Source: Acidobacteriota bacterium
GTDB lineage: Bacteria; Acidobacteriota; UBA4820
Assembly: GCA_029559035.1 (NCBI GenBank)
Contig: JAKQCT010000055.1
Location: 1-64,000 of the forward strand
Reading direction: 5' to 3'
Length of the DNA: 64,000 bases
The first letter of the stretch is position 1; every line of letters starts with the position of its first letter. Both the position numbers and the translations under genes were made by a program. Shown in pieces: positions 3,056-8,834 of this stretch. Below the pieces are notes generated by a model. It was not told the origin of the DNA. It saw nothing but the letters and a program-made list of their open reading frames with translations, and did no database searches.

Positions 3056-4129
3056 TCACACTTCCAGCATCTGGATGGTGACCTCGCGCCTGCGTCCTTC
3101 CACGAGGCCGTAGGAGAGGGTGCAGCGGGGGAGGGGAGCGGGCTCGGCGAGCCTGAGCCCGAGCAGCTCGCGGAGTGAGGCGAAGGCGAATCCTTCCTTC
3201 GATGCCTTTTCCAGGAACCCTGCGAACTCTCCTGCGAATGCGATCCCGTCGTAAAGCGGGCTGACCTCAAGCACCGGGTATTTCTGTATTGACGATTCCT
3301 TCAGGATGAACTCGTAAAAGGATCTTTCGTCCCCGTTGCCGGCGGCGAGCCACTCGGTGACCGTCGGCAGGGTTACCGGGACCTGCGGGGTTTTCATCAC
3401 TCTCGGATCGATCACGGGAAGGAACGGGTCGGTCCCCCTGCAGTCGCTCGCGAAATCGAAGGCGAAATTCTCCTGCAGGAGGATGGTCGCGTTGGAACAA
3501 AGGAAGAAGGGGGCGGCGAATGAACGCGCCCTGATACGGAGCAGGTCTTCGAACTCGGAGAGGCCCCGTTCGTAATTGAGAGCCACGGCGTCCTCGTTTC
3601 TCGAAGAAACGGCGGACTTCCATTTCGCGGGAGAGAAACCGTAGAGACCGGCATCGTGCCCTTTCCTTATTATCTCGGAAGCGGCCTCGGACAGCCCACC
3701 GGAAACGGGGCGGGGAGGGGAGAGAAGCCCCGAGTACGCCGTTTTGAATCCTTCACGCCTCACTTTTTGTGTTCTCGAGTTTTCCGAATGGAATGAAGGA
3801 TCGAGGAGAGAGAGGAAGGATTCGCCCCTCGAATCGTTGCCGCATGCCATGAAGAAGGACGAGAGGGCCGAATTGGCTCCGTAGATGTCGAGAAGAGGCC
3901 TTACTCCCTCTTCGAGCGCTCTCCTGGTGTCGACGACCGTCTTCAGGCCGATGACCTTCTTTCCGCCGAGTCCCGGCCTGAAGGGGTACTTGTCCTTCGA
4001 TTCTATCTTCACGTCCTCGAGCTTTCTCTTCTTCTCTTCGCGCCCGCCCTCTTCGATCGGCGGCTGGTAGAGGCTCTTCCTGATCTTCTCCTTGTCAAGC
4101 GGTTTAAGGCCGAAAAGTCTCCCGAACAT
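3056..4129 (-). CDS. ArnD-like polysaccharide deacetylase homologue, probably inactive
   Basis: A 357-residue protein. Residues 227-239 (ASDCRGTDPFLPV) and 247-256 (TPQVPVTLPT) match the conserved core of ArnD, the NodB-family deformylase acting on undecaprenyl-phosphate formamido-arabinose. The NodB metal site appears lost. The ArnD DVDT motif reads VVDT (65-68). The H-x-W-D-H-H segment is replaced by YGFSPAKW (163-170). The late YTIHAE motif reads LEVSPLYDG (287-295). The first 55 residues are charged and lack homology I recognise. It is the last gene of a four-gene operon and starts 5 bases after the stop of the ClpB-like gene. The family assignment is by motif; loss of catalysis is inferred. 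It may be a carbohydrate-binding or scaffold pseudoenzyme. Confidence 0.75.
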   Translation of the reverse strand: MFGRLFGLKPLDKEKIRKSLYQPPIEEGGREEKKRKLEDVKIESKDKYPFRPGLGGKKVIGLKTVVDTRRALEEGVRPLLDIYGANSALSSFFMACGNDSRGESFLSLLDPSFHSENSRTQKVRREGFKTAYSGLLSPPRPVSGGLSEAASEIIRKGHDAGLYGFSPAKWKSAVSSRNEDAVALNYERGLSEFEDLLRIRARSFAAPFFLCSNATILLQENFAFDFASDCRGTDPFLPVIDPRVMKTPQVPVTLPTVTEWLAAGNGDERSFYEFILKESSIQKYPVLEVSPLYDGIAFAGEFAGFLEKASKEGFAFASLRELLGLRLAEPAPLPRCTLSYGLVEGRRREVTIQMLEV

Positions 4130-4134
4130 CCTGC

Positions 4135-7100
4135 TTACCTCTCGTCAGATTCTTTTTCGTCGCTGCCGGCGCCGTTCTGCGACAACTCGTTCTCGTTCTC
4201 CTCGCGGTCCAGAAGCGAGATGGAAAGGCCGCCGCCGCTTCTCTCAACGAAAACCACCCCTTTTTCGTGCCACAGCGGGTCGAGCGCCTTCATGGCCAGG
4301 GGTTCCGCCACCTCGCGCCTGATGACGCGGGCGAGGTTCCTCGCGCCGTATTCGTAAGAGTACCCGGCTTCCGCCAGGTATTCCCTCGCCCCCGGGCTGA
4401 GCCTGAGATCCTTGCCCTCGTTGGCGAGCTTTCTCAGGAGCTCTTCGAGCTCGAGGTCGATTATCCTGATGACGTCGCCCTGGGAGAGGGGGTTGAAGAC
4501 GACGATCTCGTCTATCCTGTTGAGGAACTCGGGAGTGAAGAACTGGCGGACCTCCTTCATGATCTGGGCCTTCTCGTCCGTCATGATGTTCCTGGACTGG
4601 AAGCCCACCTTCGACCTCGTGAAGACATCAGTTCCGAGGTTGCTGGTCATTATGACAGTCGCGTGGTTGAACCTGACCGTACGCCCCCTGCCGTCCGTCA
4701 GCCTTCCGGCGTCGAAGATCTGGAGGAAAAGGTTCAGCACCTGCGGGTCGGCTTTTTCTATCTCGTCGAAGAGCATCACCGAGTATGGGTTCTTCCGTAT
4801 CTTATCGGTGAGCTGGTTTGGGTCGTAGTAGCCGACATATCCGGGGGAGGTCCCTATGAGCCTGGAGGTGGAGATCCTCTCCATGTACTCGCTCATGTCT
4901 ATCCTTATCAGCTTGTCCTCGTCCCCGAAGAGCACCTTCGCGAGAGTCTTGGCGAGCTCGGTCTTCCCGACGCCAGTGGGTCCGACGAACAGAAGCACTC
5001 CGTCTGGGCGGTAAGGGTGGAGGTCGTAGCCGAGCTTGCATGCCCTCACCACCCGCGACACTTTGCTTATGGCGTCGTCCTGCCCCACGACGCTCTCGGC
5101 CAGGTTCTGTTCGAGCGAGGCCAGCCGCTCGGGGGTAAGCCTGGAGAGCCTTTCGTAGCTGATGCCGGACATTTCGGAAAGAGTCTCGAGAATGTCGGAT
5201 TCGGTTACCGTCGCGGGAGACCTGCCGACGGATGACGAAAGGGCGCAGGAAGCGCAGGCCCTGTCCATCAGGTCTAGCGCGCTTTCGGGGAGCATCCTGT
5301 CGCCGACCGACATTTTCACTAGCTCGACGCATCCCTCGAAAAGCCCGTCCGGGACGGTCACGCCGTGAAAGTCCTCGTATGCCTTCTTCCTCGACGAGAT
5401 TATCTCCCTGACGACATCCTGCGGGAGCTCTTCCAGGTTCATAGTGTGGAAGAACTTGAGGAACGCGGGGTCCTTTTCGCGGATGTTGGAATACGCTTCG
5501 GGATCGGTCGTGCCGATGACGGTTATCGTTCCTTTCGCCAGGAAAGGCTTTATGAGGGAGGAGGAATCGAGTGCCGAGCCGCGCGAACTGCCCGAGCTCA
5601 CGAGCTGGTGGATGTTTTCGACGACAAGGATCTCGCCCTGTTCCTTGATCTTCTTGACGACCTCCAGGACCCTCTCTTCGAACTGCCCCCTGAAGCGAGC
5701 TCCGGCAATGAGGCTCCCGGCGATCAGCAGGAAGAACTTCCTCCCCCTGAGAGAGGCCGGTACCTCTCCGGTAAGGACCCTCTGGACCAGCTCCTCGACC
5801 AGGGAGGTCTTGCCCACGCCTGAGTCTCCCACTATGATTGCGTTCTTCTTGTCCCTGCAGGTAAGGATCTCGATGAGTATGTTCAGCTCTTCGCTCCTGC
5901 CGACAAGGGGTTCCCTCTGTTTCAAGGCTATCACGGAATTGAGGTTCTCGAGGAGGTCGTCGGAGGGGGGCTCCGGCCTTTCGATGCCGGCGGGCTTGGC
6001 TTCGGCCTTTCCCCTGAGAATGGTCCTCTTGGCCATCACTCCTGGATGGTAGGGGTTTATCGAGAGGCTTTTCTCGTAGGCGCGGTTGGCTCTCGCCCAG
6101 TCTCCCTTCGCAGCGAAAATGTCGCCCAGCGTCACGTAACCTTCGTCGCTCACGGGGAACCTCTCCAGCAGCTTGTTGATCACCGCCGCCGCCTGCTGGA
6201 GGCTGTTGCCCGCTTCGTAGGATCTCGCCAGTTCGTGGTAGAGGACGGGGAGGTCCGGCCTGACCGCGAGGGCGAGCTCGAGCTCGGCCGCCGCACGGAG
6301 GTATTCCCCCTCCTTGTTCAGCTGAACGGAGTTGATGCAATGTGTGAGCGCCGACGCGAAGATAAGGACCTCCCTGTTCTGCGACCCTCCGAGGCGGTAG
6401 AAGGCGAGGGCGTCATCGTAGGCGCCCTGCCTGAACAGGATCTCTCCGAACTCTATGAGCAGGCTCGGCGAAAGCAGGAGCCGGTAGCCGGGCTCGTCTA
6501 TGCCGCGGTAGAACGCGCCCTCCTTCGTGAGCATCCTGAGGACGAAAGAGTGGCCGTTCTCGTTGTGCAGGAAAGGGTAGAGGCAGAGGGGCTGCCCCAC
6601 TTCCGGGACGAAGTAGAGGCCTTCCTTGACCTGGTGCGATACGGTCCTGATCTTCGATACCGGCGGGCCGTCCTTCGACAGCGGTATGACCTCGGGGCCG
6701 TCGGGCACATTCTGGGAAGGCTTCAGGTGAGCCACGACGGGGGTCCAGTTGTTGACCAGGAAAGTCATGGCCTCGAATAAGATCCTCTCCGCCTCCGGGG
6801 CGTTCCTCTTGTCGCGTTCAAGAAGCGAGAATTGGTTGAACTCGTCAAGTATCTGGAGGTACTTTTTCAGGTAGAGGGGTATGAGGTCCTTTCCGGGGAA
6901 TCTTACGGGAAAGACCTGCCCGAAAAGAGGCCTGTACCTGGCGAAGAGCTGCGACTGGAACTTCACTATGTTGGGTACGGAAGGGTCGTGCAGGAAGGTC
7001 GTGGCGGATTGGGCAAGCTCTCTCGCGTAAACCCGCCTCTCGAGGTAGGCCGCAAGGCCTTCAAGCGCTATGAGATGGAACGATTCCGAGAGGACGCCGA

Positions 7101-7206
7101 AGCAGTTGTCGTGGAGGGTCCCCTCGTCGGCGTTTTCCGCGGCGAGGATGGTCCTGCCGTGCCGGTCGCCGAGGGTTTTCAGGAGGGCTGCCAGGGCCGC
7201 GTTCAT
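4135..7206 (-). CDS. TPR-ClpB-like double AAA+ ATPase with degenerate first ring
   Basis: A 1023-residue protein. Residues 1-245 match no family I recognise and TPR-like helices span about 245-395. AAA domain D1 has Walker A GDSGVGKTS (460-468) and pore loop RFRGQFEER, but its Walker B ends VVEN instead of IDE (528-531). The usual RRF arginine-finger segment reads LKFF (583-586). Domain D2 is intact: Walker A GPTGVGKTE (742-750), pore loop GYVGY (789-793), Walker B MLFDEIEK (811-818), arginine finger FLNR (894-897). The Clp N-domain and an obvious ClpB middle domain are absent. Its start overlaps the DUF6982 stop (ATGA), implying coupling. It is probably a specialised remodelling ATPase driven by D2; the substrate is unknown. 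It is not a housekeeping clpB. Confidence 0.85.
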   Translation of the reverse strand: MNAALAALLKTLGDRHGRTILAAENADEGTLHDNCFGVLSESFHLIALEGLAAYLERRVYARELAQSATTFLHDPSVPNIVKFQSQLFARYRPLFGQVFPVRFPGKDLIPLYLKKYLQILDEFNQFSLLERDKRNAPEAERILFEAMTFLVNNWTPVVAHLKPSQNVPDGPEVIPLSKDGPPVSKIRTVSHQVKEGLYFVPEVGQPLCLYPFLHNENGHSFVLRMLTKEGAFYRGIDEPGYRLLLSPSLLIEFGEILFRQGAYDDALAFYRLGGSQNREVLIFASALTHCINSVQLNKEGEYLRAAAELELALAVRPDLPVLYHELARSYEAGNSLQQAAAVINKLLERFPVSDEGYVTLGDIFAAKGDWARANRAYEKSLSINPYHPGVMAKRTILRGKAEAKPAGIERPEPPSDDLLENLNSVIALKQREPLVGRSEELNILIEILTCRDKKNAIIVGDSGVGKTSLVEELVQRVLTGEVPASLRGRKFFLLIAGSLIAGARFRGQFEERVLEVVKKIKEQGEILVVENIHQLVSSGSSRGSALDSSSLIKPFLAKGTITVIGTTDPEAYSNIREKDPAFLKFFHTMNLEELPQDVVREIISSRKKAYEDFHGVTVPDGLFEGCVELVKMSVGDRMLPESALDLMDRACASCALSSSVGRSPATVTESDILETLSEMSGISYERLSRLTPERLASLEQNLAESVVGQDDAISKVSRVVRACKLGYDLHPYRPDGVLLFVGPTGVGKTELAKTLAKVLFGDEDKLIRIDMSEYMERISTSRLIGTSPGYVGYYDPNQLTDKIRKNPYSVMLFDEIEKADPQVLNLFLQIFDAGRLTDGRGRTVRFNHATVIMTSNLGTDVFTRSKVGFQSRNIMTDEKAQIMKEVRQFFTPEFLNRIDEIVVFNPLSQGDVIRIIDLELEELLRKLANEGKDLRLSPGAREYLAEAGYSYEYGARNLARVIRREVAEPLAMKALDPLWHEKGVVFVERSGGGLSISLLDREENENELSQNGAGSDEKESDER

Positions 7207-7601
7207 TCAGGCTCCGGCGTCACCCTCAGATCGTCGCTCCTGACGATGAATACCTTCTCGTTGTTGTCAAGCGGATCGGCGGGGTAGAGGAAAAAACCGC
7301 TGTTCTCCTCGGCGAGGTTGAGCACCCTTCCCTTGATCACCTCTCCGTCGTGGAACGCGACGCTGAAGATCCTGCCGGCCCTGGGAGAACCCTCGCCGAA
7401 CTCCCTTCCCGCCTTGTAGTGCGGATTGCCGTCGAAGTCTTTCACGAAGAAAATGGCCTTCAGTTCGCTCAAGGGGAATTTAAGGACCTTTCCATCCTGG
7501 TCCAGAACCGTGATCTTGTGGAACGCGGCTGAGAAGGGAATCCTCGATGTACACCTGAGCATCGATCCGTCCCTTTTCCGGAGTATGAGCTTCTCGGCCA
7601 T
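7203..7601 (-). CDS. DUF6982-like small protein
   Basis: A 132-residue protein. The stretch LKAIFFVKDFDGNP followed by VAFHDGEVIKGRV and GFFLYPADPLDNNEKVF fits what I know of DUF6982, a small beta-rich domain often found alone or fused to PilZ-type domains. No signal peptide or membrane segment is seen. It sits between the PilB-like gene (9-base gap) and the ClpB-like gene (4-base overlap), so it is almost certainly co-expressed with both. The biochemical role is unknown. By association it may be a regulatory or adaptor module for the neighbouring ATPases (inference). Confidence 0.65.
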   Translation of the reverse strand: MAEKLILRKRDGSMLRCTSRIPFSAAFHKITVLDQDGKVLKFPLSELKAIFFVKDFDGNPHYKAGREFGEGSPRAGRIFSVAFHDGEVIKGRVLNLAEENSGFFLYPADPLDNNEKVFIVRSDDLRVTPEPE

Positions 7602-7610
7602 GGTATCCCC

Positions 7611-8834
7611 CTACAGGCTGTTCAGGACGTCCTCCAGAGTGGCCATGCCCGCCAGGGCCTTCTGGATGCCGTCCTTCTTCAGCGAGAACAATCCTTCCTT
7701 GTACGCCTGCGTCCTGACGGCCTGGATCGATTCTTTCGCGACGACCATCTTGTTCAGCTCTTCGCTCGGCTTGTAAAGCTCGAAAAGAGCGACGACACCC
7801 GAATACCCGGTGTTCTGGCATTGCGGACAGCCCTTCGCCTTATAGAAACGGGAGTTTTCCGGAAGCCTCAGCCCGAGCTCCCTCTGGATGGACTCGGTAG
7901 CCGGGTAGGCTTCGCGGCACGACGCGCAGAGACTGCGGACCAGCCTCTGGTTGATGATCGCCGTCAGCGACGCCGCGAGCAGGAAGGGCTGGATCCCCAT
8001 GTCGACTAGGTTCTGGATAGCGTTCACGGTGTCGTTCGCAGTCATCCTCGCGAGCACGACTCTTTTCGCGAAGGCCCCCTGGATAGTCACTCGGGCTTCG
8101 CTCTCGTTCGTGATGTCGCCTATATACGCTATGTCGGGCTCCTGTTTCATGAGGGAAGAAATGGCTTCCGCGAAGGTGAACTCACTCTTCTCGTCCGGCT
8201 TGCCCTGCACCATTCCGGGTATCTCGTACTTGACGACAGGGTCGTATCCCATCGCGAGCTGGTTCGGCTTGTAGACTTCGAGTATCGAAGCATAGAGAGT
8301 CGTCCTTTTTCCTGAGCCCGGAGGGCCGGTGACAAGGTAAAGCCCGGAACCCTTGGCGAGGGCCTTAGTGTATTCGACCAGGACCGACTGCATTATCCCC
8401 AGCTGGGAAAGGCGCATCGTGGCGCTCTGCTTGTAGGAGATCTTGATTATTATCGCTTCGCCGAAGAGCGTGGGGAGAAGATGGACATAAAGCTCGAGCT
8501 TCTTTTCCCCCTTCTGGCTCTTGAAGAACCCGCTCTGGGGGATCTTGTTCTTCGTGATGTCCATGCCGCCTAGCACCTTGAGGCGGTTGGCCACGTTGCC
8601 TTTCAGCTTGTCCTCGACTTTTCCGACCTCGTGAAGGGCCGTGCCCTCCCTCCTTCGGATCAGGTATCCTTCGGGGCCCGGCTCGAAGTGGACTTCGGTG
8701 GAATTGGATTCGATGGCGTCCGCTATGATCTTGTCCACTTCCTGGATGACATTTTTCTCTTCGGCAGCGTTCTTGAGCATGCTGCCGGGTTCCATGGGTT
8801 TCTTTTGCGGTTCGAAAGTGATCTTATCGGCCAT
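7611..8834 (-). CDS. GspE/PilB-family ATPase homologue with altered catalytic motifs
   Basis: A 407-residue protein of the type II/IV secretion ATPase fold. It keeps the N2-like segment (EVHFEPGPEGYLIRRREG), Walker A GPPGSGKRT (170-178), a C-x2-C pair at 303/306 and a second at 336/339 (zinc tetracysteine of PilB/GspE). The MshEN/N1 domain is missing. Key motifs are changed: the Asp box reads GYDPVV, Walker B GEIRD reads GDITN (239-243), and the TGH...LHTND His box reads AKRVVLARMTAND (256-268). ATP binding is therefore likely while hydrolysis may be weakened (inference). No other pilus or secretion component is nearby. It is the first gene of a four-gene leftward operon, 110 bases after truD. 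Confidence 0.8.
   Translation of the reverse strand: MADKITFEPQKKPMEPGSMLKNAAEEKNVIQEVDKIIADAIESNSTEVHFEPGPEGYLIRRREGTALHEVGKVEDKLKGNVANRLKVLGGMDITKNKIPQSGFFKSQKGEKKLELYVHLLPTLFGEAIIIKISYKQSATMRLSQLGIMQSVLVEYTKALAKGSGLYLVTGPPGSGKRTTLYASILEVYKPNQLAMGYDPVVKYEIPGMVQGKPDEKSEFTFAEAISSLMKQEPDIAYIGDITNESEARVTIQGAFAKRVVLARMTANDTVNAIQNLVDMGIQPFLLAASLTAIINQRLVRSLCASCREAYPATESIQRELGLRLPENSRFYKAKGCPQCQNTGYSGVVALFELYKPSEELNKMVVAKESIQAVRTQAYKEGLFSLKKDGIQKALAGMATLEDVLNSL

Follow-up and report, generated by a model that had tools for sequence, protein, structure and literature searches.

A conserved three-gene module of Acidobacteriota combines a degenerate PilB/GspE-like protein with a TPR-containing Clp protein carrying one altered AAA+ ring

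The described systems closest to the locus reported here are the PilB/GspE motors, the Clp (Hsp100) unfoldases and the deformylase ArnD. The roles of the Mg-binding Glu, the catalytic Glu, the arginine fingers and the His-box residues of PilB have been described (PMC5424180), and in the PilB–PilZ–FimX system a large regulator, together with a small protein that is not an enzyme, tunes a PilB-type motor (PMC11656802). Among the unfoldases, the VGF loops of ClpC and ClpE bind ClpP (PMC13125188), and (L/I/V)-G-(F/L) in the last AAA+ domain is the general ClpP-binding motif (PMC8745299). The roles of the metal motifs are known for NodB (PMC10967932). In this work we have compared these systems with a cluster of four genes in a window of 64,000 nucleotides, the whole stretch of DNA that was analysed, which is part of a 2.86 Mb Acidobacteriota assembly. 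The component families are known individually; their combination, and the branch of Clp proteins found here, appear to be undescribed in the searchable literature. The preliminary description of the locus knew of no system with such a set, and we likewise found none in the limited open-access literature, nor anything relevant there on DUF6982, a pseudo-ATPase PilB or a TPR-containing Hsp100 protein.

The four open reading frames lie on the minus strand within positions 3056–8834 and are transcribed in the order PilB/GspE-like (hereafter pseudo-PilB), DUF6982, TPR-Clp and ArnD-like (Table 1). Only 9 nt separate the first two genes, the second and third overlap by 4 nt, and 5 nt separate the last two; a gene recognized by eye as TruD is located 110 nt upstream of the pseudo-PilB gene. 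Scans of the cluster for promoters and terminators performed no better than on shuffled sequence, so that the assignment of an operon rests on spacing and conservation. The preliminary description had read this stretch as four coupled genes, encoding a PilB/GspE-like ATPase with altered Walker B and His box, a DUF6982 protein, a TPR-ClpB-like protein with a dead-looking first ring and an ArnD-like protein without its metal site, and the losses it describes are present in the sequence. It did not note that both PilB arginine fingers are gone as well, that the zinc cysteines of pseudo-PilB remain, or that D2 of the Clp protein is complete and has a ClpC-like VGF loop. A partial large repeat protein with ELWxxDGT and Ig-like repeats, at positions 120–2765 of the window, converges on the operon.

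Table 1. Features of the cluster, with positions in the window
Feature	Position	Strand	Match or basis
Pseudo-PilB (407 aa), limited to the N2 and C-terminal domains	7611..8834	-	T2SSE E=1e-72
Pseudo-PilB Walker A GPPGSGKR; Lys kept, next Thr/Ser replaced by Arg in all orthologues	8304..8327	-	
Pseudo-PilB Asp-box Mg-binding Glu position (E357 of Geobacter PilB), Tyr197; Phe in other orthologues	8244..8246	-	
Pseudo-PilB residue where the catalytic Glu is expected behind Walker B, Asp240; G008 and G010 alone have Glu	8115..8117	-	
Pseudo-PilB His-box region: Ala for T411, Arg for H413 and Thr for H420 (numbered as in Geobacter PilB)	8031..8075	-	alignment
Pseudo-PilB zinc tetracysteine Cys303, 306, 336 and 339, kept and invariant	7818..7928	-	
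DUF6982 protein (PF22478), 132 aa	7203..7601	-	E=9e-25, 87.7 bits (gathering cut-off 24.5)
TPR-Clp (Hsp100), 1023 aa: new N-terminal domain, TPR, degenerate D1, intact D2	4135..7206	-	
TPR-Clp N-terminal helical and beta domain, residues 1–244 (predicted)	6475..7206	-	
TPR-Clp TPR repeats, residues 247–402	6001..6468	-	
TPR-Clp D1 Walker B acidic pair, DE to EN, residues 530–531	5614..5619	-	
TPR-Clp D2 Walker B DE, intact, residues 814–815	4762..4767	-	
TPR-Clp VGF tripeptide, residues 867–869, aligned with the ClpP-binding loop of ClpC	4600..4608	-	
ArnD-like pseudoenzyme, 357 aa, clustered only in the window's family	3056..4129	-	ArnD model E=9e-37
ArnD metal motif 1, KTVVDT for RIDVDT	3926..3943	-	
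ArnD metal motif 2, LYGFSPAKW for LHAWDHHAW, both His lost	3620..3646	-	

Pseudo-PilB resembles PilB/GspE (PF00437) in its N2 and C-terminal RecA-like T2SSE domains, its zinc tetracysteine and its Walker A Lys, and it matched solved PilB, PilF and GspE chains with E values of about 1e-61 to 1e-67. Unlike them it has no N1/MshEN domain: the T2SSE match starts from residue 23, no MshEN match was obtained and the protein begins at N2. For the residues involved in hydrolysis we compared it with canonical PilB/GspE proteins, two of them from the same genome, transferring the numbering of PMC5424180 by alignment and spacing. YD replaces ED in the Asp box, GDITN stands where GEIRD is expected, so that the RD following the catalytic position is lost as well, and ARMTAND replaces STLHTND in the His box. 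Both arginine fingers are also replaced in the orthologues, one by Tyr or Asn and the other by Lys, whereas the QRL(V/I)R stretch is retained. The Walker A Lys apart, nearly all conserved residues of the nucleotide site have been exchanged. The comparison thus shows a protein which has kept the fold core and zinc motif of a PilB-type motor and has lost the residues which, judged by alignment, would be needed for hydrolysis. It falls well below the curated cut-offs (316.8 of 630 bits for GspE, 302 of 676 bits for PilB), and when its own profile was run against 396 genomes of the phylum, the copies in 12 genomes of the order scored 752–803 bits, a copy cut by a contig end (G005) scored 524 bits and every other protein reached at most 325 bits; by their length, these lower matches outside the order are ordinary PilB/GspE proteins. 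The gap between 750–800 and at most 325 bits marks pseudo-PilB as a distinct family. Separately, the window's genome encodes a second degenerate PilB/GspE homologue of 609 aa (L004:808-2637; G000:C87, about 82.3–84.2 kb), with an MshEN domain, a Walker A of SPLLQGTT without Lys and, by eye, a selA-like gene downstream; it is an independent pseudo-motor.

The genes for pseudo-PilB, DUF6982 and TPR-Clp are adjacent, and their arrangement is the same, in each of the 13 genomes examined from the order, which represent two families and six genera (G000 is the window's genome, G000–G003 make up its family and the other family includes G004–G011); some of these clusters are located at contig ends, with one gene cut there. 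The flanks, as judged by eye, vary: TruD in the window, ABC permeases in G001 and G003, polA and pyrG in G002, and in the other family YmdB/RNase Y/PheST in several genomes and an acyl-CoA dehydrogenase in G011. The constancy of the triplet amid such varied neighbours speaks strongly for a function in common. Could the altered proteins nevertheless be products of decaying pseudogenes? The loss of catalytic residues would fit such an explanation, but the frames are intact in 13 genomes, pseudo-PilB is 59–80% identical to its orthologues and the same replacements recur, the changes in the pseudo-PilB and Clp motifs being fixed in every orthologue whose sequence covers the sites concerned. Between the nearest relatives, G004 and G006, pS is 0.11–0.13 and pN 0.005–0.011 for the pseudo-PilB and Clp genes (0.11 and 0.005 for pseudo-PilB), and dN/dS is 0.03–0.15 in every computable comparison, the value for pseudo-PilB between G009 and G012 being 0.15. 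Since synonymous change is much greater than amino acid change, we reject decay, to which we attach practically no probability; judging from these substitution patterns, the degenerate parts are preserved for some job.

The third protein, TPR-Clp, has the two AAA+ rings of ClpC, ClpE and ClpA and a ClpB_D2-small domain, and like ClpA it has no M-domain insertion between D1 and D2. It differs from all three in that TPR repeats and a new domain, modelled at a mean pLDDT of 87, replace the Clp N-domain; residues 1–244 gave no Pfam match, and PDB matches covered the TPR part only. The D2 ring is complete: both Walker motifs, the pore loop GYVGY, sensors 1 and 2 and the Arg finger are all kept, and they are intact wherever they are readable. 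In D1 the Walker A is kept and the Walker B pair and an Arg finger are lost: the Glu is replaced in 13 of the 13 TPR-Clps aligned, and within the order every orthologue that can be read at these sites has EN for DE and residues of the LKFF type for the Arg-finger ERRF. ClpA/B/C-type proteins of the same phylum retain the D1 DE. It may be asked if pseudo-PilB and the D1 ring are slow ATPases with unusual residues rather than inactive ones, since both have kept the Walker A Lys and an acidic residue occupies the catalytic position of pseudo-PilB (Asp, or Glu in two orthologues). We consider this improbable, as the Mg-binding Glu, the arginine fingers and the His box have all been replaced in the PilB-like family and the catalytic Glu of D1 has become Asn, Asp or His.

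On a tree of D2 sequences, built without one misread long row, the TPR-Clps formed one group with 100/100 support, apart from the ClpA/B/C-type proteins. This group extends beyond the order: six other families of the phylum have solitary relatives (about 36–44% identity), with neither a PilB-like nor a DUF6982 gene beside them, and in these, too, the D1 Glu has given way to Asp, Asn or His. The design with one degenerate ring is therefore older than the cluster. This bears on the preliminary description, which had read three independent losses of catalysis as a sign of one repurposed assembly. The conserved set stands, with its triplet and fixed motifs, but a single event behind the three losses must be rejected, the loss in D1 being older than the cluster. 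When the N-terminal region of TPR-Clp was run against about 85,000 species genomes, a search whose reach is close relatives, the same set of genomes alone was returned. TPR-Clp is apparently an undescribed Hsp100 branch present in at least eight families of Acidobacteriota. A search of the window's genome with ClpB_D2-small gave TPR-Clp, a protein of ClpB type, ClpX and another match that is weak; neither ClpA nor ClpC was evident among them. TPR-Clp may work in a manner like that of ClpV, the Hsp100 which serves the type VI secretion machine as its sole client; however, the conserved cluster contains no T6SS genes, and the ClpV model scores the protein below the ClpA and ClpB models. An anti-phage role was unsupported, the PADLOC matches being to the AAA+ rings only. 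In three other families the gene that comes after the solitary TPR-Clp gene (L151:11921-12862, L153:6068-6988, L104:4677-5615) encodes a product of about 310 aa with an N-terminal membrane helix and the look of an alpha/beta hydrolase, a different partner for this unfoldase family.

Could TPR-Clp cooperate with ClpP? At the position of the VGF loop of B. subtilis ClpC all TPR-Clps have Gly followed by an aromatic residue, the tripeptide being VGF in the window and mostly VGY elsewhere; the first position is usually hydrophobic, with M or A in some. Nearly all have a hydrophobic-G-aromatic loop in alignment with the VGF of ClpC, one having Ala first. Each of the 15 genomes searched, that of the window included, gave a ClpP match above the family cut-off, the one in G001 being weak. 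Most orthologues carry Tyr in place of Phe or Leu at the third position, which makes ClpP binding uncertain.

Each of the 13 genomes of the order has its own GspF/PilC and at least one further canonical-type PilB/GspE match. A third, separate pilus machine was rejected, since the numbers of GspF/PilC and canonical ATPases match in the host genome, where no orphan PilC/GspF was found and the existing ones look fully used by the canonical ATPases. Unlike genes for PilB/GspE, the pseudo-PilB gene does not stand beside pilC, pilT or pilins, and apart from the ancestry of its product we found no genomic link from the module to pilus loci. Pseudo-PilB could be a regulatory subunit which enters canonical PilB/GspE hexamers or caps these hexamers at PilC/GspF, slowing or parking the motor, while TPR-Clp and DUF6982 set how long it stays. 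The canonical PilB/GspE and GspF-type proteins of the order would provide its partners, and the fold core, zinc motif and QRL(V/I)R have been kept while the nucleotide site was altered. We nevertheless regard it as an unlikely explanation: the score gap from canonical PilB is large, N1, the usual docking domain for PilM and PilZ, is missing, and the changes at the inter-subunit arginine and in the His box may stand in the way of mixed interfaces. The module does resemble the PilB–PilZ–FimX control of pilus motors in combining a small non-enzymatic protein with a large regulator, but the regulator here is an AAA+ unfoldase, no c-di-GMP domain was found in the module and the DUF6982 model has no PilZ match.

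That model (mean pLDDT 78) predicts tandem small beta barrels of the SH3/Sm-like type. Foldseek returned no significant match for it, only weak Tudor/SH3/Sm-like ones, and with no PilZ among them a PilZ fold is unsupported. Other DUF6982 proteins of the phylum adjoin unrelated genes; one of them (G036, L051:9439-9837) is encoded beside flhA-like and flhB-like genes.

We tentatively propose, as the best of several explanations and with confidence well short of even, that pseudo-PilB and DUF6982 recruit, or are handled by, a TPR-targeted Clp unfoldase with a single motor ring, acting on the pilus/T2SS motors of the cell itself. TPR-Clp would form a hexamer with D1 as a structural ring and D2 as the sole motor, and its TPR and N-terminal part would select a dedicated client. 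Pseudo-PilB, probably still oligomeric, and DUF6982 would be that client, or an adaptor bringing TPR-Clp to PilC/GspF platforms or to canonical PilB/GspE hexamers, and the unfoldase would then remodel its target or hand it to ClpP through the VGF/VGY loop. We place the target at the pilus/T2SS platform because pseudo-PilB has no clear ancestry elsewhere and because canonical motors as well as GspF/PilC are encoded in these genomes. Against this proposal, the client must be a different one in the six families where TPR-Clp occurs without pseudo-PilB and DUF6982, and the unrelated neighbours of DUF6982 homologues elsewhere also speak against it. Its weakest step is the link to pili. It is nearly as likely that the PilB fold is used here outside pili, the triplet being a signalling or proteostasis complex in which pseudo-PilB serves the unfoldase as an oligomeric scaffold. 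The lack of an orphan PilC/GspF for a third machine, the housekeeping genes beside the triplet (by eye, TruD, YmdB/RNase Y/PheST and polA/pyrG) and the occurrence of TPR-Clp by itself in other families accord with such a complex, whereas the conserved zinc motif suggests that contacts of the PilB type still matter. If the unfoldase does act on the cell's own motors, the module might even represent a new Hsp100 class, TPR-targeted, with one degenerate and one motor ring and possibly coupled to ClpP, which has a fossil pilus motor as adaptor or client and is devoted to T4P/T2SS motor control, but so full a reading we hold to be doubtful. Degenerate kin of secretion and pilus motors are seldom noticed. 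The present one is fixed throughout an order, its gene constantly next to that of an unfoldase, so that a direct connection of protein quality control with pilus-type motors can be put to the test. TPR-Clp, naturally altered in one ring, may also help in asking what the D1 ring of Clp machines does.

The ArnD-like gene differs from the other three. Its product matches ArnD, the Ara4N-P-Und deformylase, and the solved chain 8t0j over the full length, but the metal-binding Asp and both His are lost, and it has an extra N-terminal segment and a conserved C-terminal tail. In G000, G001 and G002 it stands fourth in the cluster, in G003 the contig ends, and in the clusters of the other family it was not seen; on this distribution it is best described as a family-level addition to the triplet. 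Co-location therefore holds for the triplet and fails for the ArnD-like gene, relatives of which keep full catalytic motifs elsewhere, in lineages that have an arn operon, so that for this gene the refutation named in the preliminary description applies: tailed ArnDs with the same C-terminal ending and an intact metal site are present in G005, G008, G010 and G011 (that of G009 is partial), and, as judged by eye, genes resembling ArnB and ArnA are part of the locus in G010 and G005. Two copies are present in both G004 and G006, an intact ArnD within an arn-type locus and, elsewhere, a degenerate tailed one; G007 has a degenerate copy only. The tailed ArnDs form one group (support 98/99); the grouping which bears on the number of losses has support of 50/28. 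No ArnB orthologue was found in G000–G003 or G007, the best matches in G000–G003 having 38–42% identity compared with 71–100% for orthologues. The protein looks like an enzyme which has outlived its pathway and is kept for another reason, and in our proposal it would be a later accessory, retained for its fold and tail and not for deformylation. The preliminary description had instead suggested an envelope or polysaccharide machine, which would make use of the inactive deacetylase. ArnD acts on an undecaprenyl-linked sugar, and three of the family's four genomes carry the degenerate gene within the operon, the contig ending in the fourth. We found no evidence in support of such a machine and consider it very improbable: the gene is not part of the other family's cluster, the window's family is without an ArnB orthologue, the conserved cluster contains no glycosyltransferase or polymer gene and GspF/PilC look used by the canonical ATPases. 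In some other-family genomes an open reading frame starting M(K/R)IGVIPPVPMEPF is found downstream of TPR-Clp (L049:5151-6125, L046:6525-7528) and may be an alternative fourth partner.
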